A stretch of DNA of 64,000 nucleotides, taken from Galerina marginata (lineage: Eukaryota; Basidiomycota; Agaricomycetes; Agaricales; Galerinaceae). Both the position numbers and the translations under genes were made by a program. The stretch is from positions 3,968,001 through 4,032,000 of the forward strand of contig JAECYW010000001.1 of assembly GCA_023014335.1 (NCBI GenBank), given 5' to 3'. Below, piece by piece: positions 25,244 to 61,833 of the stretch (positions are counted from its first letter, which is position 1; each line of letters opens with the position of its first letter). The notes under the pieces are model-generated. The model worked only from the letters and a program-made list of their open reading frames with translations. It had not been told where the DNA came from and did not search any database.

Positions 25244-27823
25244 ATGGTTCTCTTTCCGAACTCCTTTGGCGACATTATCGCCACCGCTAACCTTGCCCTC
25301 TCTATTTACAAAGCTCTCAGCGAAAGCGCCGGTGCCAGCTACGAGTATCAGTGTTTGATCAACGAACTGTATTTTTTCCATCTTGCTATGGTATCGGTCA
25401 ATGATGTGCTATCGAAGTCGGCCACTACTCTGGACGAAAATCTCGTGCGGAATATCAAAGCAGAAGGTGCATTCTGTCGAAAGCTGCTTGAGAAGTTCTG
25501 GCATCGCATCAAACCGTTTCAAAAGTCTCTCGGTGGAGGAGGGAAGAAGGGGAAGGACTCTTGGCGCAAAATCACCTGGAGTCTTTTTAAGACCAAGGAA
25601 GTGGGGGACTTCCGACGGGAGCTCTCTCAACACAAACAAACGATCACTATATTTCTGGGCGGACTGGGAATGTAAGTTAGAACCCGTGTTCGCAAGGATT
25701 GTCGTCACAACAGATCATGGTTCATTCTATCAGATCCCTATCTTCCAACTACGGCGAAGCTAATCAGAAGACGCTAGCGGCGCTGACAACCACTACGAAG
25801 GAGATACTCCTTGTACACCGGCAGCTACCCCGACGGGTGGGGTACTCCCTAGATAACGCCGTGATCCTGGAAGACGTATTTGGAAAACAGATTACAGTGA
25901 CATGGGAGTTTTGTTTCTCGCCCGACGTACGCTTTTTGGATTTATTTCCTGCTGCTACTGACGTCGAAGACAGGCACTACACACCTTTCTGACCGGGTAT
26001 TTCGCAAAAAAGATTGGACGGAATTATGTCGAGCGGCGGGAATATAGCATTTCTGGCGCGGATGGCAAGTCGATCGCGAAGCGTGCTCGCTCAAGGTATT
26101 CATCAGTCATGGAATTCGATGCCATTGCATGGCATTCAGTAGTGAAGAAAGGGGCAGTGCTTACAATGAGCATGGAGGTGAGAAGGGTAGAACTGTGTCT
26201 ACCTCATCACTCTGCAATTCAGAAGGATACATGTCCCCGATGTTATCGGACTGAGATTGGTGTAATGGCGGATGGTGGATGGCTAGAATGGTAAGCATTT
26301 ATTTTGCTATTCCATTGTCATCCCATTTTATGATTTTTGCATTGGAGTCGGCGATGTGAAAGACGTTTTACATGGGATGATGGGTGGGCGACAAAGTGGG
26401 CACCAGTGGGGTTTTTGGACATTGTAGATTTCCGGAACATCAAGGTGGTGCCAGTTAAACAGGTAAGAGGCAAAATATGTCAATACGAATGGGAAGTAGT
26501 CTGACAAAGTTTTGAATTGCATGAACTTCTAGTTGGTGCGTAAACTTGTTGATTGATCCCTGGCCACCGCTCTGACCATGCTGTCTCGCCTTCTCATATC
26601 CAGATCGTACGCGAGGTTGTTAATTGACCACTGACCGACACTCTGACCATTCCATCTTGCTTTCTCATTTCCAGGATGTACGTGAGCTTTTTGATAGATT
26701 ACTGACCGCCTCTCTGACCAGTCCATCTTGCTTTTTTATTTCAACCAGCCTGTGAGCTTGTTATTTGGGTACTGATCGCTGCTCTGACCATACTGTCTCG
26801 TTTTCCCATTTCCAGCCAGTACGTGAGCTTGTTGATTGAAAACTGACCGCCATCCTAACAATTCCAACCATTCTTATTTCCAGCCAGTACGTGAGCTTGT
26901 TAATTGAGTACTGGCTGCCGCTCTGAACATTTTCTCTCGCTTTCTCATATTCAGAATGTATGTGAGCTTGTATATTGAGAACTGACCATCGTTCTGACCA
27001 CTCTGCCATGCCTCCCCATTTCCAGAAGGTACGTGAGCTTGTTGATTGACCACAGATTGCTGCTCTAACCATTCTATCTTGCTTTCTTATTTCCGCCATT
27101 TTGTTGAATGATCACTGAATGCGGCTCTTACCATTCCATCTTGCCTTTTCATTTCCAGTGGGTATGTAAGCTTGTTGACCACTGACCGCCACCCTGATCA
27201 TTCCGTCTCGCTTTCGCATTTCCAGGTGTTGCTTTCTCAGCCAGTATGTGAGCTTGTTGATTGTTCACTGACCACTTTTGACCATTCTGTCTTGCTTTTT
27301 CATTTCCAGGAGGTATGTAAACTTATTGACTGATAAATGACCCCTGGTCTGACCATTCCATCTTGCTTTCTCATTTTCAGGATGTACGTGCGTTTGTTGA
27401 TTGATTACTGATTGCTGTTCTGACCATTCCGTCTTACTTTTTAATGTCCTGAAACTGTCGATCCGCCACTGGCTGCCCATGACACAATTTCATCTCACAT
27501 TTTCGTCTCCAGCCGGTAGGTGAACAGGTAGATGATCATAAGTGCGCCATGCTCACCGACTCCTCATTCCTCAGTGGGTACGTATAATCTAGCATAAGTT
27601 TGTCTAAAATATTTTCACCTTTTACTCACTATTTCCGTCCACTTTGGGTACGTCTCCGAGCTGAATGTGTTTTCCATTTGCTGATGTTCTCTGTATGACT
27701 TTCTTCAAGCTCAACTTGCATAGAACATAGCATTGAAGGAAGAAACCAGTCGATGTAAGCATTCTGAAAAGTCGTGCTCGTTTCTTCCTGACAAAATTTG
27801 TAGTCGAAGAAATTCACTCATGA
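25244..27823 (+). CDS. Micro-exon gene 1: STAND-like N-terminus, ubiquitin-like domain, zinc ribbon, 14 one-codon exons
   Basis: Large exons are 25244-25671, 25734-25926, 25974-26290 and 26348-26462. Exon 1 encodes a helical domain (MVLFPNSFGDIIATANLALS) like the N-terminal domain of fungal STAND proteins. Exon 2 ends in the ubiquitin-like core NAVILEDVFGKQITVTWEF, continued in exon 3 by ALHTFLTGYFAKK. Exon 3 has CPRC and exon 4 supplies CRRC across the splice, making a CxxC-x15-CxxC zinc ribbon. Exon 4 stops in phase 0 at VVPVKQ. Next come 14 three-base exons (26533-27577) spelling L-I-D-P-P-P-N-K-W-P-E-D-P-W. A 31-base exon (27724-27754) and a last exon from 27804 end the protein with ETSRFEEIHS and TGA, about 381 residues. 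In the tenth unit a second acceptor 15 bases upstream would add VLLSQ without changing the phase. A role in non-self recognition is inference from the N-terminal domain. Array splicing is untested. Confidence 0.65.
26533..27577 (+). repeat. Array 1: intron-sized tandem repeats separated by single codons
   Basis: Each repeat is an intron of about 65-70 bases. It starts GTACGTGAGC or a close variant, carries TTGATTGA..ACTGACC as a likely branch site, and ends in a pyrimidine tract with TTTCCAG. Between AG and the next GT there are three bases. This array is the most eroded of the three. One unit near 27097-27110 has lost both its acceptor (TTTCCGCC) and the following donor, so two introns merge. 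A long merged intron near 27385-27510 leads to CCG. Two units have altered borders (a GTGAGC donor near 26752, a doubled acceptor near 27223-27240). All 14 triplets remain sense codons. Confidence 0.8.
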
Positions 27824-29600
27824 GGTAAGATCTTGTAGAGTCGGCGGAATTGCCAAATGCTGGTTGGGCTTACTTTATCACTTAGTTACTATTATCCTCC
27901 ATGCTTTTGCGGTTCGTGGGGTGCAGCATTAGTCGTTTACAAGGTCCGATAAGAACCCACAGAGTTAGTAGTTCTGGAAGAGGGGGAAATGACGTGAGAG
28001 GGGAAATGACGTGCGAGGATGTGCTGGAATACAAACTGGTTTTTGGTGTCTGTACTTCACCCACTCGGACGCATTATATTTTTGTGCTCGTTGTTCGCAC
28101 CAACAAAGACTGAGGAGGATAGCATTCAATAAGGAAATTAGGATCGTCTCGCTTCCACTCAAAACTATCGATGTTGGAATGAAAAGGCAAAGGCGGTGGC
28201 ATTTCATAACCATCATAACCATCGATATTAAACGTTGAGTCGGGGAGAAAGCTAGCAAAAAAAAACATAGCTAAGAACACCGAAGGAAATCTGAAGGTTA
28301 TGGGCGATAAGCAGGAGAACGAGTGTCAGTGCAGATTGACGAGGAATCTGTTCGAACCTGAAGTCGCAGCTCGCGTTTTTCGACTACGAACAGGACAAGG
28401 AAAGAGAGTCATCGGCGTCGTTTGCTCCTACTCCTCGTAAGGCGATAAACAAAAAAAACGCAGAGACAGCGTTCTCCTTCAACTCTGGCTTCCTCCTACG
28501 TATTCCAACCATTTTTCCTCGTTATCGACCTCGCCAGCTACGACGCATAACTCAATCAGCGAATGACGTACAGATCGACTTGTCGTCCTTGTCGTACTGG
28601 TTAGCAATAGTCCTAAGCTTCCAATCGTCAATAACCAACGTATGTACCACTTGGCGACTTGAATCATCTTCTGAGACCGAAGTGTCGACGTAGGCATCGA
28701 ATTCCAGAGCGTCCTCGTAGTACATCTTTGTGGGTTGTTGTCGACCTCTGGACATCGGAGGGTGCAATTACCGTAGCCGTAGTCGGGATTCGGGAAAAGG
28801 AAAAAAGCAGAATCTCCGCCGAAATTTTTATCGATTTTCCAAATACTGAAACCCTAGAGCTGGCCCAGAATGAAAAAATGATCGTCCTTGACCGAGATAT
28901 AGACTCACTTGGAAATTTCATCCACTAAATCGAAACCGAAGTCGAGTCGACTTCAGAATAGCATGCCGCAAAATAGGCAATGGCGGAGTGGCAGTCGGTA
29001 TGAGCTAGTCCTGGGTTTACTGGGCCTGGAAAACCAAGGAATGACGCATAGGATCTAAATGGCGGTCTGAGCGTCGAGATTGGACATGGGTAAGAACTTG
29101 AAGTACCCGAGCTTGGGTGACGAACCTTGTGGATGTGGCAGTCAAAACCCATGCCAGCGGAGGCAGCGGGAGAATCAAAATATCTGAATCATTATTAGCA
29201 TCGAAAGCACGGCAGGCGCTATAAAAGTTTGATTTCAACTGCAGGTGTAGAAGGAGAGCATTATTACCAACCCAGTCGCGTCCTCCTCCTATTGAGCCAT
29301 CATGAATTATCCTGTAAATCGGTGGTCAAGCCTCCAGCTCTGTGCAGTCTTTTTTCGTTGTCTCAGAGCTACGAAAGTGGAGAGCGAACACGACCTGGAC
29401 AAACGAGAGTCTGAGAGGGAGCATAAACCGCACTGATTGTTGTTTCTCACCTAAAGTCGGGCTGATGAGCGAAGCACTTGTGCTGAGCGACATCCCGGCG
29501 GATATCCTGTATTTGCACCAGGCGCGACGCATACAGTACCTGTTTTCCAAATTCCAACGGATGGTTTGGCAAAAGCGTAGCTTGATCGATTGGTTTAAGC
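27824..29600. repeat. 3' region and downstream module C of unit 1
   Basis: The bases after the stop match the same position in units 2 and 3. Shared landmarks are GAGGTAAGATATTGTAG-like, GGTCCGATAAGAAC, TTAGGATCGTCTCGCTT and GCAGCTCGCGTTTTTCGACTA. From about 28360 the block also matches the module upstream of the genes (23.5-25.1, 34.75-36.2, 56.3-57.8 kb), so each gene is flanked by direct repeats. The peptide EYKLVFGV near 28030 resembles EYNMVFGV and EYNMIFGV in the other units, perhaps a 3' exon of an alternative isoform. A 17-base direct duplication (GGGGAAATGACGTG core) near 27985-28015 disturbs that frame here. Confidence 0.55.
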
Positions 29601-31690
29601 TGACGTAATGTTCATCAAGGGGTGCCGAAGCGCCTCTTTAAATATTGCATTCCCATTCGCTGGATAATACTCGGCGTTGATCGCCCTGCCTGATCTGATA
29701 TCATGCAACTGACCGAGATGCTTCATGAATCACTCGTTCACCCACATCGTTATCACCCACATCGTTATCTCAGGCAGCTCATACTCATAACGTGAACTAT
29801 CTCAACCTCATAATCTGCTACCAATTTTACAGTGCACCCCGCAGGTTTGTTTACAGTATAATTTACGATGAAAGTGGCGCCGCTCAAAGTTCTACACGCA
29901 GGACCATGTCCTCCTTCGCCAGGGTGTCTCGAGCGTCGTGTCATCGTATCCACCTGGGTGAGTGCAAAGTGCAACACTGCGCGCCGAACTTACCTCCCGC
30001 TTGATCAGGCTCAATCTCCCTTCTTGAGTGGCGGCATGACCTTTGGTGACCACTCGGCGACATGGTCATAGCTTTTTTTCTGCGTTTTCGCCAAAGGAAT
30101 ACTGTGCGCCGTATTTCAATTCTCCAAAATCCTCTCAGATAAGACCTATCCGCCCAGACTAAACTTTCATCCACTCCGACGCGCTACACATAGGCAGGAT
30201 CAGTGACGACCAGTATCGCCTCGCCGGGCATCTCAGACACCTCTCAACACGTTCATCTTCATCGTCGCACCTGAGTCTTCACAAACCACAAACTCCGTTC
30301 TCCGCTCCATTATTGTTATAACTCTACCACCCCCTTCCTTCCGGGACGCACCACATTGACATTCCAACACCCACACGCAGGACCGTGCATGACTAGAACA
30401 ACTCGCAATAATTTTCCTACAGAACGTGCCGCCCACGCCCAGGTTTGGGTTCGGGCGGTACTAAGAGCGAGTGCAGCCCCAATTCATGTGTGTTCCGGCG
30501 TGTATGTGTCGTAGAAATCTCGTGCCGTCCGGGCTTTCTCATCTTTATTCAAAAACTACACACCCACGCTTGGACGACGCTTGGAAACCTCCGAAGGACG
30601 CATGCATTTCGTGTACCATGGTCCAGCCGTCGCTGCAACTGATCTTATACAGATCTCCTGAGCGTGTGCTGATGCAAATGTCCGTTCTGGTGTTTAATCT
30701 CGCCAAGGCTGGCAGCTGCTTTTCCTTTACCTTCCTCGTGCGTTCCCTTCTATATCTGTTGTTTGGATTGCTATCTCTCCTAAAGGCGAGTAGTTATACT
30801 TATCTGAGCCGTGACGACAGCGACCTTACTCTCTTTCCCGAATATTTGTCAAGTATTACCTTGTCTTTGAAGTCTCTGAACTTTTGGTTCATCTGTCGAC
30901 CTTATTCTACGCCCTTCAAGTTCCTCCCCGTCTTCTGGATTCAACAAGAATCACTCCATCAGAATCTCTTATAGGTACGCACTGTCCGGTCTTCTGCATG
31001 ATTTTTATTTATAACCAATTCTCTCATGCCGCGAACTTGAACCAGCATGGCGATGTATGAGAACAAGGATTTGCGCAGTTTTTACCCGCATATATTCATC
31101 GTCGATGATTGATCTCCCCCTCGCCTGTGCCAGAACCTGACTGCGTCATACTCGACTCACAAACTGGTATCTTAAAGATAGTCATCTTTTTCTATTGTAT
31201 TGGTAGAGTAGGTCGTTAGATCTCTGATCAGGCCATAATTCCTTTTGTCATATTAGTTGGTGAAATTTAATTTTAATCTCAAAATCAACTTTTGAATTTC
31301 TGATCAAGCCTAATGCGGACACTCTGTTGGTGATTTAGAACACGAAGAAACTACCTTTTTTCAGCAAATTTTCGCGTTTCCGCAGTCGCTCAACGTCCCA
31401 CAGGTGCCCGAAAAAGTATCGGAGAAAACGAGCGATTTTTGATGGAGTTAGGACACGCCATTCTGACCATCTAATGATCATGATCTCCATAGCACTAAGA
31501 TCGACGGTTTGACGATTTCTTTTCATACAGAAAGCTGGAGAATTCTCAAAGTTAAGCCGCCTCAGTGAACACTCTTATCCTTGTAGCCGGTGAATACAGA
31601 AACCAAGAATTGGAATTTTATTTTATTAGGCGCAAGGAAAGCTTTGTACAAACAATGTATGAAGCACTATACCTACTCGTCCTTGACTTC
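29601..31690. repeat. Module B, first complete copy (start of unit 2)
   Basis: This block matches 50026-53050 in direct orientation. Shared landmarks are AGCTGACGTAATGTTCAT, GTGCCGAAGCGCCTCTTTAA, TTCGCTGGATAATACTCGGC, GACTCGCAATAATTT-like, GTCCGTTCTGGTGT and GATCAAGCCTAA. The copy at 50 kb has about 1 kb of extra sequence near 51.02-51.99 kb that is absent here. Open frames differ between copies, so no gene is supported. A conserved GTAAGT on the minus strand near 29993 hints at an old spliced transcript. Confidence 0.6.
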
Positions 31691-34600
31691 GCTTGCCCGC
31701 TAACTGTGTAAACCACGAGCACGATTTGAAAAGTCAGTGAGGGGCGCGTCAAATCGGCAGGGGCCAACTACTGCAAACCCAATGAATGTACCACGCTTAT
31801 TAGGCGCATAAAAACGTCGTAACAACCCGTGCTTACCAACTAGGAAGATAAAGAACGCTTGAGAACCATAAGGTAGGCAACTTTGAAGTGCGATCGATCC
31901 TTCAGCATCATCACTTTCAAGCAAAAGACGGGATTAGAACGAGATAAATGACATCAAGGAGAAAACTCACCTGCGTCATCCATCCATGCCACTTCCGTCG
32001 AGACAGTCGAGAAGAGTTGACAAAACAAAGGCCAGCGGCGTCAGGCACGGAAAGCCTTTGCTGACGTGTATATTCTCGCCTGAGGTCGGTCAATCGGGGA
32101 TAAGGGTGAACGACCAGATGGACCAGCTCTGGCGTAGGTGGGCATCGGTCTCCTTGCAGCGGTGGCGAAGGTAAATGGCCAAGAGGGACAGGGGCGGATC
32201 TAAGCATAGGTAGGTATGGATATGGAGGAACGATGAGGACGAAGAGCCGGTCCTAAAGTCGCTATGAAGAGAGTCTTTGTTGAGAGACCCCAAAATTAGA
32301 TCGAGGAATGGATTTTCTGCTGTAAGAGCTGCCACCGCGGATGACGTTCAAGCCAAAATTAAAGACAGCGTCAATATCGAGGAGGTTGAAGGGCGTCGAG
32401 CTCAGGATCGGGCTGCAAACTTCCAGGCGAGACGAACGGTGGCTCGAAGCATCAAGCTCAGAGCATATCCACTCGATGCGGTCCTGGAGGAACATCTCCA
32501 CTGCTTGGGAGGATGTATGCGCTTTGATTTGTACGGACGAAGACAGGCGACCATGCGCCAAAATGATATTTGAACAGGAAGAGGGTTTGCAGCATGGGGC
32601 CGTTGTGGTCGTTTGCGTCTATCCCTTGAAGTTGCCCAAAAAGATCCGCGCCGAAGGCGAAAGCTTCAACGCATATCTCCTCCTCCTCCTCCATCCTAGT
32701 TCGCTTATCGTCGTCATTATCGTCCTTGCCGTCACCCCCGCCTGCACACGCATAACGACATATAAAGCTCGTAGTCTTCTTCATCCTCAGACTATAATCC
32801 AAACGCATAGCTCGCGTTCTGTGGATAGTCCTTTGAGTGGGTGGTCAAGTATCGGATGCATCCTCGATGTCGTATAACTCCAGGTTACCCATTCTCGCAA
32901 GAAAACGTGCGTTCAAACGCTAGAATAATACCTAGAGAATGAGTCCAAGATAAGTCATACGAGGAAAAACACACACATAACAGGTCTTTCATCTCGAAAG
33001 TATGGTATCATCAATCCGATCATTCTTCTCCACATTCCAGCACCAGCTTGGGAGGCGGTTCAGTTTCATGGCACGCAGGTGACGGTCGAAAACAGAACAG
33101 ACGACTGGACCAAGCTTCCTTGGCAACAAATCCAAACCGACGAGTTGATGTGGTGAATCCATAATCGGAAAAGCCGACGTAGGCGACTCGTTTGCACTCC
33201 TCAGGCTAGGGTCAATGCCCCGCCAAGTCCACGCCTAGTGCTTCTTAGAGGAGACCCCATCTTCGTCTTCATCTTGCCCTGCTCGTCCTCAGCCGCGGTC
33301 GCAGCATCTGCCACGTCACAGCTATTCCCCGACGAAGACAGCCAGAACGAGCGGACCTCCACTAGGCAAGATGACGACGATACTGAATCTACGGATCCGA
33401 AGGGTATGCTTTCGCTGGTAGACTCGGACGCAGGCTGGTCAGGGCTGATTAAAGGATGGATTTCTGGTCAGGCTCTGGCAACAGCGGCAACGTGGAGGTC
33501 AAAGAGTTCCAGGTAAAGAAGGGTAGGGACGTGGAGAGCGGATACGGATGGAGGAAGTGGACGAGGAACTGGGAGAGAAATAAACACGGCTAACAAGGAC
33601 AATCCTGGGGCTGATGTTGAAGTCGGTGTCGAACATTGAACGTTGAACGCTGAAAAAGTATCGAAGTTGACGCGTTGACGCTGGGACCAGCGTCGAGCTC
33701 GGGTCCTCCAACTTCCTGCTTTCAGTCTTCCAGAGCATCGGGGTCGGGTATCGGGTCGGGTCTCGGGCCGTCCCACCATGTACAGCATGTTGATCGATAT
33801 CGATCATTGGTCCAAGTCGCTGGTTCGTGGGCCATCCATCTTGATAGTCTCATCCTCATCTTCATCGATTCATCTCCAATGTCAATGCCGCTGTCACTCG
33901 GGCTCCGATGACCACCACCAGAACGAACACGTTGAGCTCCACGACCACTTTGCTGTAGTATAACTTCCTGACTTCTCGGTGTACGAACTGTCCTTGATTT
34001 GTGATATCGACTTCGTGAAATGCTCCAGTTGGTTGAAAGGTAAGTCGGGCTTGATATTGGAAGTTTCGATGGGCCAGCTCTGGCAGTGGTGTACAGAGTA
34101 CAACGAAGCGTCGTCATCGATCCCCAACCGCGGCGGACTGGAAAAACGCGGAGGACGACGAGGAGATGCAAGCGAGGATGGGGATGGATATGTACTATGG
34201 ATATGGGTATGAATATGAATACGAATGGAGGAAGACGGCCAGGTGCTGGGTGCTGAGTGTAGATGAAAGGGTCGTTGGGAGCGAGTGATGTTACCGACGT
34301 GGCAGCCACAGCTTGAGGCCAGGACGTCGGCGTCTACGTTGATGGTCCTCATGATATTGAGAACGTTTGGAGGAACGTGAATCGGGGTGAAGAGAATTTC
34401 CGCTGTAGCTGCCATGACTCAGGATGAAACTGAAGTCGGCTGTGAGGAGGTCGAAGTTGAACTTGAGGCGTCGAGGCTAAACATGGCATCGAGCTCTGGG
34501 TTCGGTCGTCTATCTTCCAGCTTCCAGGGTTAAAGAAAAGGCGTCTCGGAGCACCGGGTCAAAGCTCAGCCCGCCAAAACTTGAAATATTCGAGGAGGGC

Positions 34601-36214: not shown

Positions 36215-38807
36215 ATGATTCCCCTTCCAAGCTCATTTGGCGACATTATCGCCGCTGCAAACCTTGCCTTCTCCATTTACAAAGCTCTCAGTGACAGCGC
36301 CGGTGCCACCTACGAGTATCAATGCCTGGTCGACGAACTGTATTCTTTCCATCTTGCTCTGAAATCGGTCAATCAGGTTCTGGCGAATTCGGCGATTTCT
36401 CCGAGCGACGTTCATGCTATCAAAGAAGAAGCTGTATCCTGTCGAAAATTGCTGGAAAAGTTCTGGGATCGCATCAAATCGTTTCAAAAGTCTCTCGGTG
36501 GTGGTAGAAGGGACTGGAAGGACTCTTGGCGCAAAATCGGCTGGGGTCTTTTCAAGTCCAACGAAGTCGCGGATTTCCGACAGAAGATTTCTCAACGCAA
36601 ACAAACAATTGCGATATTTCTGAGCGGACTGGGAATGTAAGTTGGCAGTGATTATCTTCACAACAGATTATGATTCATTGTATTAGATCCCTAACTTCCA
36701 GCTACGGCGAAGATATTCGGAAGACGCTAGTGGCGCTGACAACCACTACAAAGGAAATACTCCTTGTACAAAAGCAGCTACCTCGACGGATGGAGTACGG
36801 CCTAGATAACGCCGTGATCCTGCAAGACGTGTTTGGAAAACCGATTACAGTTACATGGGAGCTTTGTTTCTCGCCTGAAGTATGCATCTTCAATGTAGTT
36901 CTTTCCGTTATTGACGTCGAGGACAGGCACTACACAATTTTCTGACCGGGTACTTTGCGAAAAAGATTGGGCAGGATTATGTCGAGCGCCGCGAATATAG
37001 CATTTCCGGCGCGGATGGCAGGTCGATTGTTAAGCGACCCCCCCGAGGAAACTTGAAGTGGCGTTCACAGGACCCGTCAGACATGGAATTTGATCCCGTT
37101 GCATGGCGTTCGGTGGTAAAGAAAGGGGCGGTTCTTTTCATGAGTATGGAGGTGAGGAGGATAAAACTGGAGTCCACTCATCAATCTGCAATTCAGAAGG
37201 AAACATGCCCGCGATGTTACCGGACTGAGATTGGTGTAATGCCGGATGGCGAATGGCTAGAGTGGTAAGCATTTTTGACTATTCCATTTCCAACCAATTT
37301 CATGATTTTTTGCATTGGAGTCGGCGCTGTCAAAGACGTTTTACATGGGACGATAGGCCGGTGGAGGTAGAGAATGCACCTGTGCCAGATCCGAGCATTG
37401 TAGATTTTCGGAACATCAAGGTGGTGCCAGTTACAGAGGTAAAAGGCAACATATATCAAAATGAATGGCCAATAGTCTCACCAGTTGTTTGAATTTCATG
37501 ATTTCTAGATTGTACGTAAACATGTTGATTGATCACTGACCTCCCACTCTGACCATTCCATCCTGCTTTCCCATTTCCAGTGGGTACGTGAGCATTGATG
37601 ATTGAGCACCGACCACCGCTCTGACGTTCCATATTGCTTTCTCGTTTCCAGTCTGTACGTGACCCTGTTGATTGAGCACTGACCACAGCTCTGACCATTC
37701 CATCTCGCTTTCTCATTTCCAGGGTGTACGTGAGCCTGTTGATTGAGCACTGACCACCGCTCTGACCATTCCGTCTCGCTTTCTCATTTCCAGCTTGTAC
37801 GTGACCCTGTTGATTGAGCACTGACCACTGCACTGACCATTCCATCTCGCTTTCTTATTTCCAGCCTGTACGTAAATATGTTGATTGATCACCGACCTCC
37901 CGCTCTGAGCATTCCATCCTGCTTTCCCATTTCCAGTGGGTACGTGAGCATTGATGATTGAGCACCGACCACCGCTCTGACGTTCCATATTGCTTTCTCG
38001 TTTCCAGTCTGTACGTGACCCTGTTGATTGAGCACTGACCACCGCTCTGACCATTCCATCTCGCTTTCTCATTTCCAGGGTGTACGTGAGCCTGTTGATT
38101 GAGCACTGACCACCGCTCTGACCATTCCGTCTCGCTTTCTCATTTCCAGCCTGTACGTGACCCTGTTGATTGAGCACTGACCACCGCTCTGACCATTCCA
38201 TCTCGCTTTCTCATTTCCAGGATGTACGTGACCCTGTTGATTGAGCACTGACCACAGCACTGACCATTCCATCTCGCTTTCTCATTTCCAGCATGTACGT
38301 GAGCCTGTTGTTTGAGCACTGACCACAGCTCTGACCATTCCATCTCGCTTTCTCATTTCCAGGATGTACGTGAGCCAGTTGATTGAGCACTGACCACAGC
38401 TCTGACCATTCCATCTCGCTTTCTCATTTCCAGAGTGTACGTGAGCCTGTTGATTGAGCACTGACCACCACTCTGACCATTCCACCTTGCTTTCTCATTA
38501 ACACCTTGATCATCATAAATGCGCCGCTCACCGACTGCTCATTTTGGGAAATCTGCAGTGGGTATGTATAATTTAGTAACGGCTTTCCTCGAAATTTTTC
38601 ACTTTTTACTCACCATCTCCTTCTACTTTGGGTATGTTTCCAAGCTGAATGTGTTTCCTATTTGTTGAGGTTCTTTCTATAACTTAATTCTAGTTCAACT
38701 TGCATAGCTACAAGCAGAGGAGGACGAAGCCAGTCGATGTGAGTATTCTGAAAGGTCGTGCTTCTTTCTTACTAACAGAATTTGTAGTCGAAGAAATTCT
38801 CTCATGA
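36215..38807 (+). CDS. Micro-exon gene 2: STAND-like N-terminus, ubiquitin-like domain, zinc ribbon, 15 one-codon exons
   Basis: Large exons are 36215-36636, 36687-36879, 36927-37264 and 37321-37438. Exon 1 begins MIPLPSSFGDIIAAANLAFS and ends near IAIFLSGLG, with donor GTAAGT. Exon 2 has AVILQDVFGKPITVTWELCF and exon 3 starts ALHNFLTGYFAKK, the ubiquitin-like part. CPRC in exon 3 and CRRC at the start of exon 4 form the zinc ribbon, with the splice inside a codon. Exon 4 ends PVPDPSIVDFRNIKVVPVTE in phase 0. The 15 one-codon exons (37509-38561) spell I-W-S-G-L-P-W-S-G-P-D-H-D-S-W. The 31-base exon 38708-38738 and last exon from 38788 give EEDEASRFEEILS and TGA, about 388 residues. Compared with genes 1 and 3 the variable peptide is richer in W, S, G and P. 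Placement after a zinc ribbon suggests an exposed tail. Confidence 0.65.
37509..38561 (+). repeat. Array 2: intron-sized tandem repeats separated by single codons
   Basis: This is the most regular array, with a 71-base period: a 68-base intron plus a three-base exon. Donors are GTACGTGAGC or GTACGTGACC, the likely branch site is GAGCACTGACC, and acceptors end CTTTCTCATTTCCAG. A block of five consecutive units (from 37509) is repeated about 356 bases on (from 37865). Between the two blocks the triplets TGG, TCT and GGT are kept, while CTT has become CCT. The last intron has lost the usual end and finishes at AATCTGCAG before the constant TGG. Confidence 0.85.
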
Positions 38808-39280: not shown

Positions 39281-39285
39281 GAACG

Positions 39286-44571: not shown

Positions 44572-47500
44572 ATGTTAATGTATAGGCATACAATTTTAAG
44601 GGAAACACCTCCTACCACACCACAAAGACAGCGTGATGCAGAAAGAAGACAAGAGCGTGAGAGCCGTACTTTGGACAGCCCACAAATACGGCGTGCACCT
44701 CAACAGCCAATTTCCCATGTGCCTATCCCCTTTAATTTAGCACAGCACAACCCTCCGCAAGCGCCATTGAACCAAGCTTCTGAAGATCCATTTGTTGATG
44801 TAGATATGAATGGCCGAGAGCTTCGCTTAGCACCTGGAATTGCTGGCCAATTGGCGAGTTTACCACCTCTTCCCATGTTTCGCCGTTATGGAGCGGTGCC
44901 CGCACCAAATGTATGTGTTGGATTTTTCTTAAATAATGTAGGCAGCTAAAAAAAAGAAAAAATTGCAGCCTATAGCAGCACTTCCACTTCCACCACCACC
45001 TCATAATGGTTTGGATCAAATTCAGGTATATTATTTCTCAAATTTCCAAACAACTGATAATTGATTTCTATAGCATCAATATGCTAATTTACCTGTACAT
45101 TTGCAAACAATGCTGGCAAATCTGCCACCTATTCCACCAAGGCAACTAGGTAGGCGTGGTCAAACTCAACCTAACCCACCAACTTTGCCTTTGCAAATTC
45201 AGCCAAACTTAAATTTAAACAACACCTTGCAGCCTGCAGCTCCTGTTGTAGCTCCTCTGCATGTTCAAGGTAATTTTCCTGTGGCCCAAGTAGTGCCTGC
45301 TATAGTGCCCGCTATGATGCCTGCTCCTGCTCCTGCTCCTGCTGTTGCTGCTATGTTGCCTCCTGAGAATACTCTTGAGCCTGAAATTGCTCCAGTTCGC
45401 ATTCCGTATACAAATTTGCCTGATGCATATCTGCCTGTGGATGAAACTCATCGCCGCTATAAAAAGATGAACTTGGGTCCTATGAATATTGAATGTAAAA
45501 AGTGTCATGCACTGCATTGGATAGATGAAAGACACACAAAGTCTTCTAAAACAAATCCTACATTTGGTACATGCTGTCTGGATGGCAAAATACAACTGCC
45601 ACAATTAGATAAACCACCACGAGAACTTCGTGAATTATATGATGGCATTAGTAACCACTCAGACCACTTTTTGAAGCACATTGTGGCTTATAACAATGCT
45701 TTTGCTATGATCTCAGTTGCACATAATCAGGTTCATTTCAACACTCCAGGACCTGATGTGTATACAATTGAAGGGGAATTGAGACACCGCATGGGTGCTC
45801 TTTTGCCAACTGATAAAGGACCACTATATGCCCAAGTTTACTTCCAAACAAATGAAGCTGCACTTGATATTAGAATGGGCCGCACTGCTTACATTGATCA
45901 GAACAATGATGGGCAAGAGGAAAATCAGACCAGACACACCAGAAGACAACAACCAGGGCGCAGACAAATTTTACAAATTTTACAAGATGTTTTGCATCGG
46001 AATCATGGATATATTGCTCTGTACAAAACAGCATTAGAGCGGCTTCTTGAGGCTGGAAATCCTCCAGATTTACATGTGTGGTTGCATTTTAATCCTCAGC
46101 AAGATCAGCGAAGATATAATCTGCCAACTGCAGATGAGGTTGCAGTTATTATCCCTGGAAATGGACAGCAGGCAACAACAGGCCGTGATTTAGTGTTGGC
46201 TACTCGGGATGGACCTCTTAGAAGAATATCAGAAACACATCCTGCCTTTCAATCTTTGTACTATGTTCTACTATTTCCAAGAGGAGAGCATGGCTGGCAT
46301 ACTGGAATTCCTTTGTGTCTGGGTGAAAATGAAAATTATAATCTATCAGAACACCATGAAGAGGAAATGCGGCATGCAGGAGAGGAGCCTAATAATGATG
46401 AGCAAAATGAACAGAACAACAGGAGAAAGTCACGTAAAATGGTTTCTCAGTTGGAATACTATGCCTACCGTCTACATTCAAGATGCAATGAATCAAATCA
46501 TTTATTTAAAGCACGGGCTCTTTTTCAAAGATATATTGTTGACGGATGGGCTCAAACTGATCAATCACGTTTATCTTGGTTGGAAAATAACCAAGATGAA
46601 CTACGTGTTGAGGTTCTTCAAGGATTTGTTGATGCAGTTGCTGCACATGGCGATGCAAATCTTGGAGAAATTGGCCAACGTGTTATTTTACCATCTTCAT
46701 ATATTGGAGGATCAAGACACATGTTTCAGCTCTATCAGGACTCCTTGGCATTAGCCCGCTTTTTTGCCAAACCTGATTTTTTTCTAACAGTTACTGCAAA
46801 TCCAAGATGGGAAGAAATAACTCAGGAACTACTCCCAGGCCAGCAACCTTCTGACCGCCCTGACCTTATTGCTCGAGTATTCCGGGAGAAAATTCGTAAA
46901 TTAATCAAAATGATTAAAGGAGGTCTTCTTGGAGGCTTCTGTGGAAATGTTTATACCATTGAATTTCAGAAGCGTGGTTTGCCACATATTCATATTTTGA
47001 TTTTTTTAAACCGTGAGGCACAAGAGAGGTTAAACAACCCAGAAGTGATAGACAAAGTAATATCAGCAGAAATTCCTGATCCTGCAACACACCCCAGATT
47101 ACACCATTTGGTTACAACACTAATGGTACATCGACCATGTGAAGGGAATGACAAAGCATCATGCATGAAGAATGGAAAATGTTCCAAGCATTATCCAAAA
47201 GAATTTCATGAACAAACAACTCTTGCCCATGATGGATACACAATCTACCGAAGGCGGAATAATGGGCGTACATTTACCATGGCTGATGGCACTATAATTG
47301 ACAATCGGAACATTGTCCCATATTGCCCATTGATTTCTTTAATGCTAGATTGTCATGCCAATCTTGAATGCTGCATATCTATTAAAGCATTCAAATATGT
47401 TCATAAATATGTATATAAGGGTCAGGATCGCACAACAATGGGCTTTGGACAAACAGAAAATGAAATTAAACAGTATTTAGATGCAAGATATGTTTCTGCA

Positions 47501-49795
47501 TCTGAAGCTATGTGGCGGCTTCTCCGATATGATATGCATGAAGAATTTCCAAATGTTGTCTGTCTTGCTATCCATTTGCCAAATCAGCAGGCTGTTTATT
47601 TTAATGAGGGTGACAATGCTTATCAGATTGTTGAAAATGCTGCAAATCAAGATACAACTTTGACAGCATTTTTTAAATTTAATAAAACTGAAGAGGAAGA
47701 GGAAAATCAAAATCCTATTATTGGTCCCCGTCAACATTATGCTCGAGGATTACTTTACCAAGAATTTCCACAAAAGTATGTCTGGAATATCTCACAAAGA
47801 AAGTGGAAAATACGCCAAAAAGGTTTTGCTGTTGGGAGAATGTATTTTGCACACCCAACTGCTGGGGAGCGTTTTTATCTACGAGCTCTTTTGACAGTTG
47901 TACGTGGTCCAACGTCATTTGAGAATCTTAGACATTTTAATGGGATAGATCATCCCACATTTAAAACAGCATGTATGGCACGAGGTCTATTGGAGGATGA
48001 TAGTGAATGGAAAGAATGCCTTCGTGAAGCCTCAGAAATCCAAACTGGCTATCAGCTGCAGATGCTTTTTGTCACTATTCTTTTGGAGTGCAATCCTTCT
48101 CATCCTGACTTACTGTGGGCTGAATTTAAGGAGCAGATTTGTGATATTATGTTGAAGAGGACAATGATAAATAAGGGATTGGCTCAAAATCCCAGTGATG
48201 AAGAGGTGCAGGACTATGGTCTATATTTGATTGAAAAGCGGCTTCACAAGTCTGGAAAAACATTAAAAGATTTTCCACCAATGCCTTTACCCTCTGATCG
48301 GTGGCAAGAAGCTGAAAGAAATAGGCTACTTTCTGAGCAACTGGCTTATAACCGAGAAGAACAACGCCTTAAGGCAGATGAACAAATACCCAAGCTGAAT
48401 GCTGAACAACGACAAGTGTTTGATATAGTTACCCAGGCAATACTTAACCAAACACCAAAAGTGCTTTTCTTGAATGGCCCTGCTGGCACAGGAAAAACAT
48501 TTTGGTATAACACCATCTGCTATCATTTACGTGCAGAGGGGAAAATTGTTCTTTGCACTGCATCATCAGGAATTGCTGCACTTCTTATTATTGGTGGAAG
48601 AACTGCACATTCAACATTTAAAATCCCATTGGATATTTATGACGGAAAGACCTGTAATGTTAAAAAAGGAACTCATTTGGCTGAATTGCTTAGCAAGACA
48701 GACCTGATTATTTGGGATGAAGTTCCAATGCAGGATCGTTTATGTCAAGAGGCAGTTGATCTGACCCTGAGAGACATTAAAAACAAGGACATCCCCTTTG
48801 GTGGAATTCCTATTGTTTTTGGAGGAGACTTTCAACAAATATTACCAGTTGTAACAAAAGGTGGACGTGAACAAATAGTTGGGCAGTGCCTACAGCGGTC
48901 AAGATTATGGCGTAACATTGAGGTGCTCACTCTAAAGCAAAATATGCGATTGGAAAGTAGTTCAGAAGAAGAACAGCAATTTGCCCAATGGTTACTAGAT
49001 GTTGGACATGGGAGAAATTATATAGCAAATGATATGGGCAGAATCAAGCTCCCTGCAACAGTTAACTGTGGAAATACAGTTGAAAATTTGATTAGTGCAA
49101 TTTATCCTGGAATTGCTTCAATCAACCCAACGCATAATCATGATCAGTACTTTCTGGAAAGAACAATTTTAACAGCTCGCAATGAGAGTGTTGAAGATCT
49201 CAACAATGAAATTTTGCAGCGATTTCCAGGACAAGAGCTGTTATACAACTCTGCAGATTCTGTGGTAACTGAGCGTGGAGTTGATGCTGATGTTCAATAT
49301 CCTCTTGAATATTTAAATTCCATAAATGTTTCTGGCCTGCCACTTTCAAAGCTGAAGTTAAAAATTGGAGCACCAATCATGATCCTCCGTAACATTGATC
49401 CACAACATGGGCTTTGCAATGGTGCACGTGCTATCCTCACAAAGGCTACCCGGCATGTACTTGAAGTTCGACTTTTAGGGGGTGAGCATGCTGGGCGCAA
49501 AGCATTCATTCCACGCATTACTCTTACACCTGCAACAAATTCAGGATTACCATTTGTTCTGCAGAGGCGCCAATTTCCTGTGCGGCTAGCATTTGTTATG
49601 ACAATCAACAAATCACAAGGTCAATCTGTCAAGCATGTGGGATTGGATTTGCGAACTGAAGTTTTCACACATGGTCAATTGTATGTTGCTTTATCACGCT
49701 GTACTTCAAGTACACGCATCAAGGCTATTTTTAATGAGAATATAAGAGACACAGAGACTGTAAATATAGTATATCCCGAGGTTCTTCTGGATTAG
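44572..49795 (+). CDS. Helitron Rep/Pif1-type helicase (RepHel)
   Basis: The main exon 45101-49795 is open for 1564 codons. It joins an upstream proline-rich exon through introns at about 44910-44941 (GTATGT...GTAG) and 45027-45073 (GTATAT...TATAG). The start at 44572 is a guess. Counting from 45101, a Cys-rich segment with CKKCHALHWI and CCLDGKIQLP comes first, followed by the Helitron N-terminal domain. The HUH nickase centre is FFLTVTANPRWEEI and KRGLPHIHILIFL (about 625-635), with the tyrosine motif YVHKYVYKG (about 765-775). The C-terminal third is a superfamily 1B helicase: GPAGTGKT Walker A (about 1126), IIWDEVPM (about 1205), GGDFQQILPVV, a GLCNGARAIL segment, and NKSQGQSVKHVGLDL (about 1501) followed by YVALSRC. 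All key motifs are intact and no stop interrupts the frame, so the element may be recently active. AT-rich codon use differs from the GC-richer host genes. Confidence 0.9.
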
Positions 49796-56200: not shown

Positions 56201-57751
56201 GGAGTAGAACGACGGCGTCGGCCTGTCGAGTCGCGGCTGAGCTGGGTAGAGAGTTTTTGAGCTGGTATAAGTCATCGGCGTGGACGAGGACATCATCATG
56301 GTTGAAATCGGGCCTGTATTCGAAGTTGCAGCTCCCATTTTTCAATCGGGGTCTTTCGCTCCTGTTCCTCAGAGTGGGGTAAACGAACCGAACGCGCAGG
56401 CAAAACGTTCTTTTTGCAACGCCGATTCCCCTCCCCTCTTCCCGTCCTCCTCCATATTCCAACGATTCGTTCTCGTTCTTTTCCTCGTCCTCGCCTGCCC
56501 GCTCGATGCCTACCAACCGTGGAATGACATAGAGACCGCCATCTTCGTCCAGGCAACAGGAAACATCCACGTAGTTGGTAAGCGACGTACTGGCCTTTCG
56601 TTGCCTGAATCGTTGCTGGATTCAAAGTGTCGACATATGCTTAGAGTTCTAGAGTGCATTGTAGGACGTCCTTGATGACTTGTAGTCCGACTCTCCGTCC
56701 GGACGTAGTGTTGATGGTGGTCAAAGACAGGTTCAAGCGGAAGTATCGACTCGCTGGTGGTCGATTTGCACAAATGCAAGCGTGAATGAAACTCTAGAGT
56801 TAGCCCACAATGAGCAAGTGGTCTTCGTCGGGTGAGATATGGACTCACATAGAAATCGCATCCAATAATTTGAAACCGATCTTGGAATCGAAATTGATTT
56901 CAGAATAAAATAGAATGCCGCGAAAGGGGCGGTGGCGACGTGGCAATCGACCTGAGCTTGCGTTGCTGTATCGTGACAGGAAAATTTATCGATGATGCAT
57001 CGATCCGTGGCAGTATGAGTGCCAAGGTCCAAGGTGGATAAAAAAACTTCATATGCGCGGGTTTGGATGATGGGCCAGGTCGATATGGCAGTCGAAATTC
57101 ATGCCAGCGGGGATTCAGGGTACAAGAACCATTCCTTTGTGTCGAATCCCTTGAAAACATCGAGATTCAATATTCAATATTTATGAGTTCAATGCTCCAT
57201 CTTCGAGGGTTTCGTTCGAAGAGCAGAAGGACTGCTGCAATAAAAAAGTTCGATTTCAACACGAGGTGCAAAGGGAGAGCATGTTTACTTACCATTCAAG
57301 TTACCAAGTTGCTGGAGGAGGCATATCAGGCCTACCCTAGCAGCTCGGGTCTGACAATGCTCGGATAGCACATCGAGCAGGCGCGCAGTCTGGCAAGCGC
57401 GTGATGGCAGGAACCAAGCAAGGATGCCTTCGTCACAGGACCGCGTCCGTCTACATGCGGACAGGCTGTGCTACTGGCTATCTAATCTAATCAGGTCTTG
57501 AGAGTCCACTCATCGCGTCCTCCTCCCGTTGAGTCATCTTCCATCATCCGACAACTCGGTGGTCGAGCCAGTTCGCCGCATTCTTGTTTCTTTTCCTCAC
57601 AACTACGAACGAGGATAAGTGAACACGAGCTGTATAAATGAGAATGAGAGGAGTGTAAACCGCTGATGACAAGGACCCCCTTTCAAGTTGCCAAAGGCGG
57701 TGCGACATAATAGGGTACACGCCTCAACCTCGTGGTTTCCATGCAGCTGTG
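53231..57751. repeat. Front and upstream modules of unit 3
   Basis: Matches 31691-36167. It contains the NPFLDLILGSL relic (53920-53880, minus), the CGACGCTCGAAGACGGCTAG stretch, GTGGCAGCCGCAGCTTGA (near 55865), GCAGCTCCCATTTTTCAA (near 56328), and the CGAGCAGGCGCGCAGTC module (57320-57495). Frames such as 56338-55574 (-) overlap others and are not conserved in the sister units. No intact gene is supported. Confidence 0.6.
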
Positions 57752-57809
57752 CTGAGTACTTAAATTTTAAAGCTCAAGACCTCATTCAGTCATTCCCTAC
57801 TTACTGGCA
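57752..57809 (+). promoter_or_regulatory. Conserved leader before micro-exon gene 3
   Basis: Contains GTACTTAAATTTTAAAG, CTCATTCAGTCATTCC and TACTTACTGGCA directly before the ATG at 57810. It is the counterpart of the blocks at 25191 and 36168. Confidence 0.5.
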
Positions 57810-60800
57810 ATGATTCTCCTTCCGAGCTCTTTTGGCGACATTGTCGCCGCTGCTGGCCTTGCCCTCTCCATTTACAAGGCTCTCAGCGACAGCGCCGGTG
57901 CCAACTACGACTATCAATGCTTGATCAACGAACTGTATTTTTTCCATCTTGCTCTGCTATCGGTCAATGATGTGCTGTCGGAGTCGGCGACTACTCTGGA
58001 CGAAAACCTTGTGCGGAATATCAAAGCAGAAGCCGCGTTCTGTCGAAAACTGCTCGAAAAGTTCTGGGATCGCATCAAACCGTTTCAAACGTCTCTCGGT
58101 GGAGGAGGAAGGGACTGGAACTTGAAGGACTCTTGGCGCAAAATAACCTGGAGCCTTTTCAAGACCAAGGAAGTTGCGGACTTTCGGCAGAAGCTCTCTC
58201 AACACAAACAAACGATCAGTATATTTCTGAGCGGACTCGGAATGTGAGTTAGAAATTGCGTTCGCAAGGATTGTCGTTGAGACGGATCACGACTTATTGT
58301 ATTAGATCCGTGACCTCCAACTACGGCGAAGCTAATCAGAAGGCGCTAGTGGTGCTCACGACCACTACGAAGGAGATACTCCATGTACACAAGCAGCTAC
58401 CTCGACGGATGGAGTACGGCCTAGATAACGCCGTGATTCTGCAAGACGTATTTGGAAAACCGATTACACTGACATGGGAGTTTTGTTTCTCGCCTGACGT
58501 ACGGTTCTTAGATGTACTTCTTCTGTCACTGACGTCAAGGACAGGCACTACACACCTTTCTGACCGGGTACTTTTCGAAAAAGATTGGGCAGGATTATGT
58601 CGAGCGGCGCGAATATAGCATTTCCGGTGCGGATGGAAAGTCAATTGTGAAGCAAGCAAGCCCAAATTCATGGGACCCGCCAAGCATGGAATTTGATCCC
58701 GTTGCATGGCGTTCGGTGGTGAAGAAAGGGGCAGTGCTTACCATGAGCATAGAGGTGAGAAGGGTAAAACTAACATCCACTCATCAATCTGCAATTCAGA
58801 AGGAAACATGCCCGCGATGTTACCGGACAGAGATTGGTGTAATGCCGGATGGCGAATGGCTAGAGTGGTAAGCATTTTTGATTATTCCATTTCCAACCCA
58901 TTTCATGATTCTTTCATTGGAGTCGGCGTTGTGAAAGACGTTTTATATGGGATAATAGGATGGTCGAGGTCGATGAGGCACCTGTGCCGGATCCAAGAGT
59001 TGCAGATTTCCGGAACATCAAGGTGGTGCCAGTTACAGAGGTAAAAGGCAAAGTCAATATAATTGGGTAGTACTTTTACCAGGTCTTTGGATTTCATGGA
59101 TTTCTAGGCCGTACGTGAAATTGTTGATTGACCACTGACCACCGCTCTGACCATTCCATCTTGTTTTCTTATTCCCAGTTGGTACGTAGGCTTGTTTACC
59201 ACTGGACACCACTCTGACCATTCCGTCTCACTTTCGCATTTCCAGTATGTACGTGACACTGTTAATTAATCACTGACTGCCGCTTTGACCATTCCATCTC
59301 ACTTTTGCATTTCCAGGAAGTACGCCAACTTGTTGATTGATCACTGACTGCTGCTCTGACAATTCCATCTCACTTTCTCATTTCCAGGATGTACGTGAGC
59401 TTGTCGATTGAGCACTGACCGCCACCCTGACCATTTCATCTTGCTTTCTCATTTCCAGTTTGTACGTGAGCTTGTTGATTGAGAACTGACCGCTGCTCTG
59501 ACAATTCCATCTCGCTTTCTCATTTCCAGGATGTACGTGAGCTTGTTGATTGAGAACTGACCGCCGCACTAACAAATCTATCTCGCTTTCTCATTTTCAG
59601 GAGGTACATGAGCCTGTTGATTGAGCACTGACAGCCGCTCTGACAATTCCATGTCGCTTTCTCATCTCCAGGAAGTACGTGAGCCTATTGACTGAGCACT
59701 GACCGCCACCCTGACAATTCCATCTTGCTTTTTCATTTCCAGGACGTATGTGAGATTGTTGATTGAGAACTGACCGCCGCTGTGACAATTCCACCTCACT
59801 TTCTCATTTCCAGATAGTACGTGAGCTTGTTGATTGAGAACTGACCGCTGCATTAACAAATCTATCTCACTTTCTCATTTTCAGGAGGTACATGAGCCTG
59901 TTGATTGAGCACTGACAGCCGCTCTGACAATTCCATGTCGCTTTCTCAGCTCCAGGGAGTACGTGAGCCTATTGACTGAGCACTGACCGCCACCCTGACA
60001 ATTCCATCTCGCTTTCTCATTTCCAGTTTGTACGTGAGCTTGTTGATTGAAAACTAAGCGCTGCTCTGACAATTCCATCTTGCTTTCTCATTTCCAGATA
60101 GTACGTGAGCTTGTTGATTGAGAACTGACCGCTGCACTAACAAATCTATCTCGCTTTCTCATTTTCAGAAGGTACGTGAGCCTGTTGACTAAGCACTGAC
60201 CGCCACCCTGACAATTTCATCTTGCTTTCTCATTTCCAGTTTGTATGTGAGCTTGTTGATTGAGAACTGACCGCTGCTCTGACAAATCTGTCTCACTTTC
60301 ACATTTCCAGGCTGTACGCCAGTTTGTTGATTGATCACAGACCGTCGTTCTGACCATTCCGTGTCAATTTCGCATTTCCAGTATGTACATAAGGCAGTTG
60401 GTTGGTCACTGACTGCTGCTTTGACCATTCCATCTCATTTTCGCATTTCCAGGATGTACGCCAACTTGTTGATTGATCACTGACCGCTGCACTAACAAAT
60501 CTATCTTGCTTTCTCATTTTCAGGAAGTACGTGAGCCTGTTGATTGATCACTGACCGCCACACTAACAAATCTATCTTGCTTTCTCATTTTCAGGGAGTA
60601 CGTGAGCTTGTTGATTGAGCACTGACCGCCGCTCTGACAATTCCATCTCGCTTTCTCATTTCCAGGATGTACGTGAGCTTGGTGGTTGAGCACTGACCTC
60701 TGCACTAACAAATCTGTCTCGCTTTCGCATTTCCAGCATGTACGCCAGCTTGTTGATTGATCACAGACCGCCGCTCTGACCATTCCGTTTGACTTTCGCA

Positions 60801-61833
60801 TTTCCAGTATGTATGTAAGGCTGTTGATTGATCACTGACTGCCCCTTTGAGCATTCCATCTCACTTTTGCATTTCCAGGATGTATGCCAGCTTGTTGATC
60901 GATCACAGACCGCCGCCCTGACCATTCTGTGTCACTTTCGCATTTCCAGTATGTAAGTAAGGCTGTTGATTGATCACTGACTACCCCTTTGAGCATTCCT
61001 TTGCATTTCCAGGATGTACGCCAGCTTGTTGATTGATCACAGACCACTGCTCTGACAATTCCACCTCGCTTTTGGATTTCCAGGAAGTACGCCATCTTGT
61101 TGATTGAGAACTGACCGCTGCACTAACAAATCTATCTCGCTTTCTCATTTTCAGGACGTACGTGAGCTTGTTGATTGAGCACTGACCGCTGCTCTGACAA
61201 TTCCATCTTGCTTTCTCATTTCCAGGAAGTACGTGACCTCGTTGATTGAGGACTGACCGCCGCTCTGACCATTTCATCTTGCTTTCTCATTTCCAGCGAG
61301 TACGTGAGCATGTTGATTGGTCACTGACCACCACTCTGACCATTCCATCTTGCTTTCTTATTTCCAGCAAGTATGTGCCTGTTGCTTGACTACTGACAGC
61401 TGCTCTGACCATTCCATCTCACTTTCCCATCTCCAGAAAGTAGGCGAATTTGTTGATTCACCACTGACTATCACTCACATAATTTTCTCACCCCTTCATC
61501 TCCAGCAAGTAGGTGAACATGTAGATCCTCATAAATTCGCCATGCTCACTGAATTCTCATTCGTGGAAACATGCAGTGGGTATGTTGTATGATTTACCAT
61601 CAGTTTTCCTAGAATAATCACCTCTTACTAACTATCTCTTTCCACTTTGGGTACGTTTCCGAGCTGAATGTGTTTTTCCATTTGCTGATGTTCTTCATAT
61701 AATAATAATGTTCTTTAAGTTTGACTTGCATAGAACGCAGCAGTGGCAGAAGAAGCCAGCCGGTGTGAGTATTCTGAAAGTTTGTGCTTGCTTCTTACTG
61801 AACAAATTTGTAGTCGAAGAAATTCTTTCATGA
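57810..61833 (+). CDS. Micro-exon gene 3: STAND-like N-terminus, ubiquitin-like domain, zinc ribbon, 36 one-codon exons
   Basis: Large exons are 57810-58243, 58306-58498, 58545-58867 and 58923-59040. Exon 1 begins MILLPSSFGDIVAAAGLALS and includes a Lys/Arg-rich helix (LLEKFWDRIKPF). Exon 2 contains NAVILQDVFGKPITLTWEFC and exon 3 starts ALHTFLTGYFSKK, the ubiquitin-like part. CPRC in exon 3 pairs with CRRC in exon 4 as a zinc ribbon. Exon 4 ends in phase 0 at VVPVTE. The 36 one-codon exons (59108-61579) encode a strongly acidic and aromatic peptide: 8 Asp, 7 Glu, 4 Tyr and 3 Phe, ending DEDERQKQW. The 31-base exon 61734-61764 and last exon from 61814 end the protein AEEASRFEEILS and TGA, about 408 residues. 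The array is over twice as long as in genes 1 and 2, so length differs freely among paralogues while the end stays in frame. Confidence 0.65.
59108..61579 (+). repeat. Array 3: intron-sized tandem repeats separated by single codons, with higher-order structure
   Basis: There are 36 three-base exons. Most introns are 68 bases, but some are shorter (60 bases for the one starting GTAAGTAAGG near 60953), while the exon length never changes. At least three intron subtypes recur: GTACGTGAGC with CTAACAAATC, GTACGCCAGC with GATCACAGACC, and GTATGTAAGG with GATCACTGACT. They follow each other in blocks, so the array grew by duplicating groups of units. In one such pair of blocks (59600-59815 and 59885-60100) the introns are close to identical, but the triplets GAA and GAC of the first block are GGA and TTT in the second. 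Confidence 0.88.

Follow-up and report, generated by a model that had tools for sequence, protein, structure and literature searches.

A 64,000-nucleotide (nt) stretch of the Galerina marginata genome, here ‘the window’ (positions 3968001-4032000 of contig C1, JAECYW010000001.1, in a 69.3-Mb genome), carries three paralogous genes: A at 25244-27823, B at 36215-38807, and C at 57810-61833. Each has constant coding exons, then an array of introns lying head to tail and separated by single triplets, and then a short tail. Quite probably, as judged from the DNA, these introns are each removed, with the single codons between them predicted to make up, once joined in the same frame, a short peptide, hypervariable and largely different from gene to gene, which would stand between the conserved upstream protein and the tail. 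With spacers counted by nearest-site reading, the parts of these genes are as follows:

25244-25671, 25734-25926, 25974-26290, and 26348-26462, + strand: four constant exons of gene A, ending ...VVPVKQ in phase 0
25244..26462, + strand: gene A constant region, made up, by alignment, of a helical N-terminus, ULD_2, and a zinc ribbon
26463..27723, + strand: gene A intron array, with 14 predicted one-codon exons and predicted string LIDPPPNKWPEDPW
26533, 26604, 26675, 26749, 26816, 26884, 26955, 27026, 27159, 27241, 27310, 27381, 27513, and 27575, + strand: positions of the predicted one-codon exons of gene A
27724-27754 and 27804-27823 (27724..27823), + strand: gene A tail exons, reading NIALKEETSRFEEIHS and then stop
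36215-36636, 36687-36879, 36927-37264, and 37321-37438 (36215..37438), + strand: four constant exons of gene B, ending ...VVPVTE in phase 0
37439..38707, + strand: gene B intron array, with 15 predicted one-codon exons spanning 37509-38561 (TGG at 38559 being the last) and predicted string IWSGLPWSGPDHDSW
38708-38738 and 38788-38807 (38708..38807), + strand: gene B tail exons, reading LQAEEDEASRFEEILS and then stop
57810-58243, 58306-58498, 58545-58867, and 58923-59040 (57810..59040), + strand: four constant exons of gene C, ending ...VVPVTE in phase 0
59041..61733, + strand: gene C intron array, with 36 predicted one-codon exons spanning 59108-61579 (TGG at 61577 being the last) and predicted string ALYEDFDEEDIEGFIKFAYDEGDHYDYDEDERQKQW
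61734-61764 and 61814-61833 (61734..61833), + strand: gene C tail exons, reading NAAVAEEASRFEEILS and then stop

Once joined, the constant exons of A, B, and C are stop-free and of a length divisible by three, giving 351-357 residues. As a preliminary description of this DNA had proposed, the upstream exon (exon 5) of all three genes ends in phase 0 and the tail is read in frame to a common stop. The tail consists of two small exons, with SRF closing the first and EEI(L/H)S preceding the stop in the second. Also borne out by the nearest-site reading are its unit counts of 14, 15, and 36, its three-base spacers (each of the 65 in the window allows a 3-nt reading), and its one spacer with an in-phase alternative acceptor, which is found at 27241 in gene A, where the upstream acceptor would yield 18 nt. 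Other particulars need amending. VVPVTE does precede the array in B and C, but in A the peptide is VVPVKQ. Intron lengths, put at about 60 to 70, instead range in the window from 59 to 79 nt, with outliers of 122, 129, and 130 nt, the latter two found in A at sites where one unit has lost its acceptor and the first preceding the last codon of B. The donor is not in every case the GTACGT described, with GTATGT, GTACAT, GTACGC, GTGAGC, and GTAGGT seen as well. Two earlier models of our own were also set aside: Gene A was first thought to be broken at the exon-5 acceptor (gatag in B, gatgg in A), which was a wrong acceptor choice, with an upstream acceptor, ATTG.AG, providing one reading common to A and five of its paralogues (B-F; D-F are introduced below) and completing the zinc ribbon. 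A supposed intron of 45 nt, lying between exons 3 and 4, was rejected since the frame of A-F stays open across that stretch.

Searches of the single source genome, at both the protein and the DNA level, found four more genes of this kind:

C1:4081858: gene D, 13 one-codon spacers
C43:2027771, minus strand: gene E, 16 one-codon spacers
C23:2566848: gene F (L022), 14 one-codon spacers along with three longer, in-phase spacers
within C43:64500-74000, minus strand: gene G (L023), divergent, 55 one-codon spacers

The seven genes total 163 one-codon spacers, with 13 to 55 per gene. Gene G has only 32-34% protein identity with A-F, yet displays the same order of parts, the array (predicted string containing DEDFWPELWDWWDWRPQEPR), the final TGG, and a tail, ASRFEEILP. 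The upstream coding sequence is open from its ATG in A-F and over the 307 modelled residues of G, with E being 97.4% identical over 352 residues to one Galerina marginata protein and G 88.8% identical over 304 to another, identities that point to a Galerina or a very near relative as the source. The tail is in frame in seven of seven genes, the most divergent being those of E (ASRFEIMR) and F, the latter lengthened in frame. This longer F tail exon, reading DIAEDKEASQYEYFESSEEEDACRFEEILS, is another change without loss of frame. The last array codon is TGG, again in all seven, and W is the fixed end residue of the variable string.

The arrays were found in this gene family only. A two-unit pattern has 80 genome-wide matches, all 80 within the seven loci, versus 0 for a reversed control. 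A search with the 68-nt unit gave 118 matches among those listed, all in the same seven arrays, with only the best candidates scored, such that weak single copies elsewhere are possible. Five distant paralogues, L024-L028, which were found via the N-terminus, are without an array, possessing 0, 0, 0, 1, and 1 YAG-NNN-GTRNGY sites per 5.0-6.0 kb.

What suggests that the spacer triplets are codons? There are no stops among the 163 (a number that leaves out the three longer F spacers of 12, 12, and 9 nt), versus 11.0 expected when each codon position is shuffled (5000 shuffles, P 0.0002). With codons counted only once per gene (n = 81), 4.2 stops are expected and again none is seen (P 0.006). For the window by itself, the previously noted absence of stops from 65 triplets holds, with column shuffling resulting in 4.6 expected stops (P 0.0027). 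Across the 163 spacers 34 distinct codons are used, and the resulting strings are rich in D (26), P (24), W (22), E (20), and R (12), with C and M both at zero. The longer F spacers, i.e., YLQT, LVSV, and FLE, are stop-free. More generally, deviating spacers can be read as 9, 12, 12, and 24 nt in F, the 24 nt by way of an alternative acceptor at one site, and as the 18 nt already mentioned in A, all of which are in phase and stop-free.

Variation, too, is concentrated in these bases. With diversity computed only on units found exactly 71 nt after the preceding unit, the triplet columns of G (50 units) have pairwise diversities of 0.66, 0.73, and 0.67, versus an intron mean of 0.086 and a top intron column of 0.50. 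Equivalent triplet values are 0.63, 0.52, and 0.68 in C, versus an intron mean of 0.187, though with two intron columns reaching the second triplet value, and 0.80, 0.75, and 0.65 in D, versus 0.232, though with one intron column (0.80) equaling the top. The most variable three-base window of the unit is the spacer triplet in C, D, and G, while in B the first two triplet columns exceed every intron column. Among unit pairs which differ at just 1-2 of 68 intron bases, triplet bases differ at 46% in G (66 pairs), 38% in C (7 pairs), and 49% in B (13 pairs); where the introns of a pair are identical, its triplets agree in 14 of 15 cases in G and in 1 of 3 in B. Similarly, B and D are 90.5% identical in their coding exons and 98.5% identical in array-intron consensus, and their strings, IWSGLPWSGPDHDSW versus DIIPEGLYEDWQW, match at 4 of 11 aligned residues. 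Between genes A-F, array introns are 66-78% identical versus 77-89% for ordinary introns of the same genes. The divergence of array introns from gene to gene thus equals or exceeds that of ordinary introns, and hence array introns are not simply frozen, with the excess of variation lying instead with the triplets. That excess would be explained by diversifying selection on the predicted exon or by a raised mutation rate there, and synonymous counts do not decide between the two.

Homologues, as found with three protein searches, are present in Galerina marginata, Flammula alnicola, Gymnopilus junonius, Pholiota conissans, and Psilocybe cyanescens and, more distantly, in Artomyces pyxidatus and Lentinus tigrinus as well as in environmental sets. 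Tested were nine public models which extend at least to where the constant part ends (Artomyces P0013 and Lentinus P0016 lie outside of this test). For five of these, three from G. marginata and one each from F. alnicola and G. junonius, tail 4-mers match translated array introns beyond shuffles, an example being KKH-VRELVD, whose VRELVD-stop is encoded by GTACGTGAGCTTGTTGATTGA. Gene callers, that is, appear to read one codon and then to run into the next intron. An environmental protein, P0009 (2655-nt contig), has SSRPLPRVVDE and then VCELL... after its constant exons, with a shuffle test that is not significant; as read from these residues, its tail could begin with 11 joined codons and then run on into a single array intron that was retained.

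P0025 differs from these models. It is a 289-residue protein from a 1486-nt JGI contig, with an open reading frame that starts inside of exon 1 and continues unbroken through the later constant exons. There then follow 19 extra residues (around SLLWVELVELLALARRREK), a W before the tail, just as in the seven genes, and CQAEAEEANRFVEIS, which can be aligned to the A-G tails. Twenty introns of at least 59 nt along with 870 nt of coding sequence would require more than 2000 nt. As the introns cannot fit within that contig, P0025 is taken to be, and most likely is, a spliced RNA.

Various considerations weigh against reading the triplets as codons. Constant 3-nt spacing is weak evidence because tandem duplication copies spacing along with everything else; by our estimate fewer than one out-of-phase insertion or deletion is expected within the 3-nt spacers, with 34 of the 153 array introns counted departing from 68 nt. 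Shuffle P values are optimistic, overstating independence, since array units share descent, and the stop test is uninformative if the 34 distinct codons are taken once each (1.3 expected, P 0.21). Single-base differences between close units are 6 synonymous to 39 non-synonymous, i.e., 13% versus 20% expected, and these synonymous counts (6 of 45, with differences not treated as independent) show no clear excess of amino-acid change. The third triplet base of B, furthermore, is constant among the 11 units compared, and out-of-phase readings also are possible at two of the four deviating F sites. Frame-blind dynamic programming of splice sites over all seven arrays does give 155 of 167 exons as 3 nt, with nine of the 12 others multiples of three, but it picked as well three exons which are not multiples of three, namely 28 and 38 nt long in C and 19 nt long in E. 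In two cases the exon begins at an upstream acceptor of the first intron, where the next acceptor yields 3 nt, and in the remaining one a stretch of the last intron takes the place of the final TGG. This programming is too loose near first and last introns and was not used for counts. The tails of four of the nine public proteins are uninformative, with P0008, P0009, and P0010 not above shuffles and P0019 too short. Lastly, P0025 could represent instead an allele or relative that is without introns at the place of the array.

An alternative is that the array is removed as one long intron, from the exon 5 donor to the tail acceptor, or is silent satellite, either way with the triplets going untranslated. 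Skipping the whole array likewise keeps phase 0, so the conserved tail by itself cannot separate this possibility from that of codons. Public models from named species, too, are without a clear codon string, with five of them entering first introns and then stopping. A single long intron or satellite nevertheless gives no reason for why the three bases between AG and GT should be both the most variable window and stop-free in 163 of 163 instances. In C, D, and G, too, no unit has lost its GT or AG (units being defined by these sites) although the intron body is 6.5-14.5% off consensus, and unit spacings leave no room for a missing unit in these three arrays. P0025, moreover, has its 19 residues and W at the array’s place. 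We consider this alternative to be improbable. One-codon exons, as the preliminary description had interpreted these arrays, are the reading that fits best and are supported by the stop-free triplets, the diversity peak, the flanking frames, the public models, and P0025, with splicing itself being predicted.

How units multiply can be seen especially in G, where codons 10-24 recur as 24-38 with their introns nearly unchanged, a 14-unit block with a 1000-bp shift. Recent tandem duplication would account for this block, as possibly would the assembly itself. Gene B repeats TGG TCT GGT. Along the G array, single-base intron variants occur in many combinations, the pattern that a shuffling of codons through intron-to-intron recombination should produce. 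Near-identical introns found beside unrelated codons would be expected also had the arrays arisen not by duplication of intron plus codon but instead by repeated, introner-like insertion of one intron at each codon boundary of an existing coding stretch. Such insertion, however, would have had to hit each third base, without exception in phase 0 and as many as 55 times, and we know of no driver for it. Unit blocks also have been duplicated together, as with the 14 units of G and the TGG-TCT-GGT of B, and the two-unit pattern and 68-nt unit are found, as scored on best candidates, in this gene family only. An origin by insertion therefore appears distinctly unlikely.

A different question is whether a given array yields one peptide or many. 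With combinatorial splicing any donor could be joined to any later acceptor, transcripts would carry different in-frame subsets of codons, and each gene would produce many peptides. Donors and acceptors in fact are near-identical and any skip of one-codon exons would remain in frame, as is so where units of A and F have lost a site, fusing two introns with the frame intact. Recognition across short introns, on the other hand, would favor splicing from neighbor to neighbor, and P0025 is a single product. Combinatorial splicing consequently may be entertained, though we lean against it. Scarcely credible, by contrast, is that the introns are the cargo, e.g., as hosts of small nucleolar RNAs (snoRNAs) or other intronic RNAs, with the spacers as mere host exons. 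Tandem introns which carry snoRNAs do exist elsewhere. No Rfam family reaches gathering score in the window, however, the best in array C being HOTAIR_2, on the other strand, at 19.8 bits versus a cut-off of 60, and four units (two from B, two from C) fold worse than shuffles (z of +1.0 to +2.5).

The constant protein was scanned against Pfam for genes B and G and for 15 homologues, the latter at E 0.1. The N-terminus of gene B matches PF17111 (PigL_N) at 34.0 bits versus a cut-off of 27.2, as does that of P0003 at 29.2 bits, and of the 15 homologues 9 match at E 0.1. ULD_2 (PF22893; cut-off 24.5) is found in B at 48.6 bits, in G at 63.4 bits, and in 12 of 15 homologues, this being the only domain that was matched in G, i.e., no PF17111. 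The zinc ribbon, CxxC...CxxC, is read from the alignment. Neither NACHT nor NB-ARC was matched in the scanned proteins. PF17111, as Helo_like_N, is listed among fungal NLR effector domains (PMC9815663). The structure model, viewed against the four-helix bundle of MLKL/HeLo, is of low confidence and has no clear structural relative, so it is Pfam by itself that provides the HeLo-like assignment.

Among known systems, the HeLo-like (PF17111) fungal cell-death proteins are resembled by gene B and P0003, whose N-termini score beyond the Pfam cut-off for that domain. Unlike with those proteins, the companions of the domain here are ULD_2, a zinc ribbon, and the codon string, with G scoring ULD_2 only. 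Schistosome micro-exon genes (MEGs), suggested early on as the nearest analogue, do resemble these arrays in having very small, serial exons that are multiples of 3 nt (here 163 inferred across seven genes), and MEGs vary their products via splicing (PMC4015677). In MEGs, however, micro-exons make up as much as 75% of coding sequence and most genes possess a signal peptide (PMC4015677), whereas here the string represents only about 3-15% of coding sequence (13-55 codons versus 307-357 constant upstream residues) and the gene B N-terminus matches PigL_N instead. The analogy thus holds for tiny, consecutive exons but not for micro-exons as most of the coding sequence. Also unlike with MEGs, the array exons are almost all a single codon and the introns are near-identical tandem repeats. 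With Podospora het-d and het-e (HNWD), tandem repeats undergo concerted evolution family-wide, a few codon positions per repeat are under diversifying selection, and repeat number varies (PMC1805685). There the repeat, WD40, is translated, while here the repeat is an intron that is predicted to be discarded, with the non-repeated codon kept. Stwintrons are a case in which closely similar spliceosomal introns multiply in fungal genomes (PMC9024468). In a stwintron one intron lies within another and interrupts one of its splice elements, while here neighboring introns each run complete from GT to AG and are separated by 3 nt. Introner elements are near-identical introns dispersed over many unrelated genes; array introns, by contrast, are found in one gene family, with 80 of 80 two-unit matches falling in seven loci. 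Arrays of one-codon exons are without description in the openly licensed full-text literature searched, which is not proof of their absence.

As for the rest of the window, a 1573-residue open frame at 45074-49795 (+ strand), between B and C, matches Helitron_like_N (188 bits), PIF1 helicase (267 bits), and Pif1_2B, and by these matches is classed as the gene of a Helitron-type element, without internal stop. At 1324-3075 (+ strand) there is a 583-residue open frame that is rich in P, S, and Q and has no Pfam match. No tRNA genes were found in the window.

Fungal introns usually are recognized one by one, across the intron. Array introns likely are as well, in which case the 3-nt exon need not be recognized as an exon at all. 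Unequal crossing-over between near-identical introns likely would add, remove, or shuffle whole codons, with the 14-unit block in G the visible duplicate, and introns may be homogenized even as codons are subject to selection for diversity or to raised mutation. Tentatively, then, the units might be viewed as codon cassettes, with recombination, and possibly exon skipping, editing, lengthening, shortening, and shuffling the peptide residue by residue while keeping the frame, which would make of them a fast, open-ended generator of recognition specificity for fungi. That the peptide sets recognition specificity, as hypervariable WD repeats do in Podospora HET-D and HET-E, is a guess by analogy, one which we would not press, though it is the most likely role to suggest because the constant part carries a type of domain found in fungal cell-death and NLR proteins.

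If confirmed, this would be a means of changing a protein one whole amino acid at a time, its reading frame unbroken. As a gene architecture, it would discard the repeated DNA and build protein from the unrepeated codons in between, as many as 55 one-codon exons in a row. Such an architecture would test the limits of intron-defined splicing, and would explain public gene models that run into introns and stop. It would mean as well, if true, diversity by whole-codon recombination in a family with a domain that has ties to NLR immunity and to cell death in fungi.

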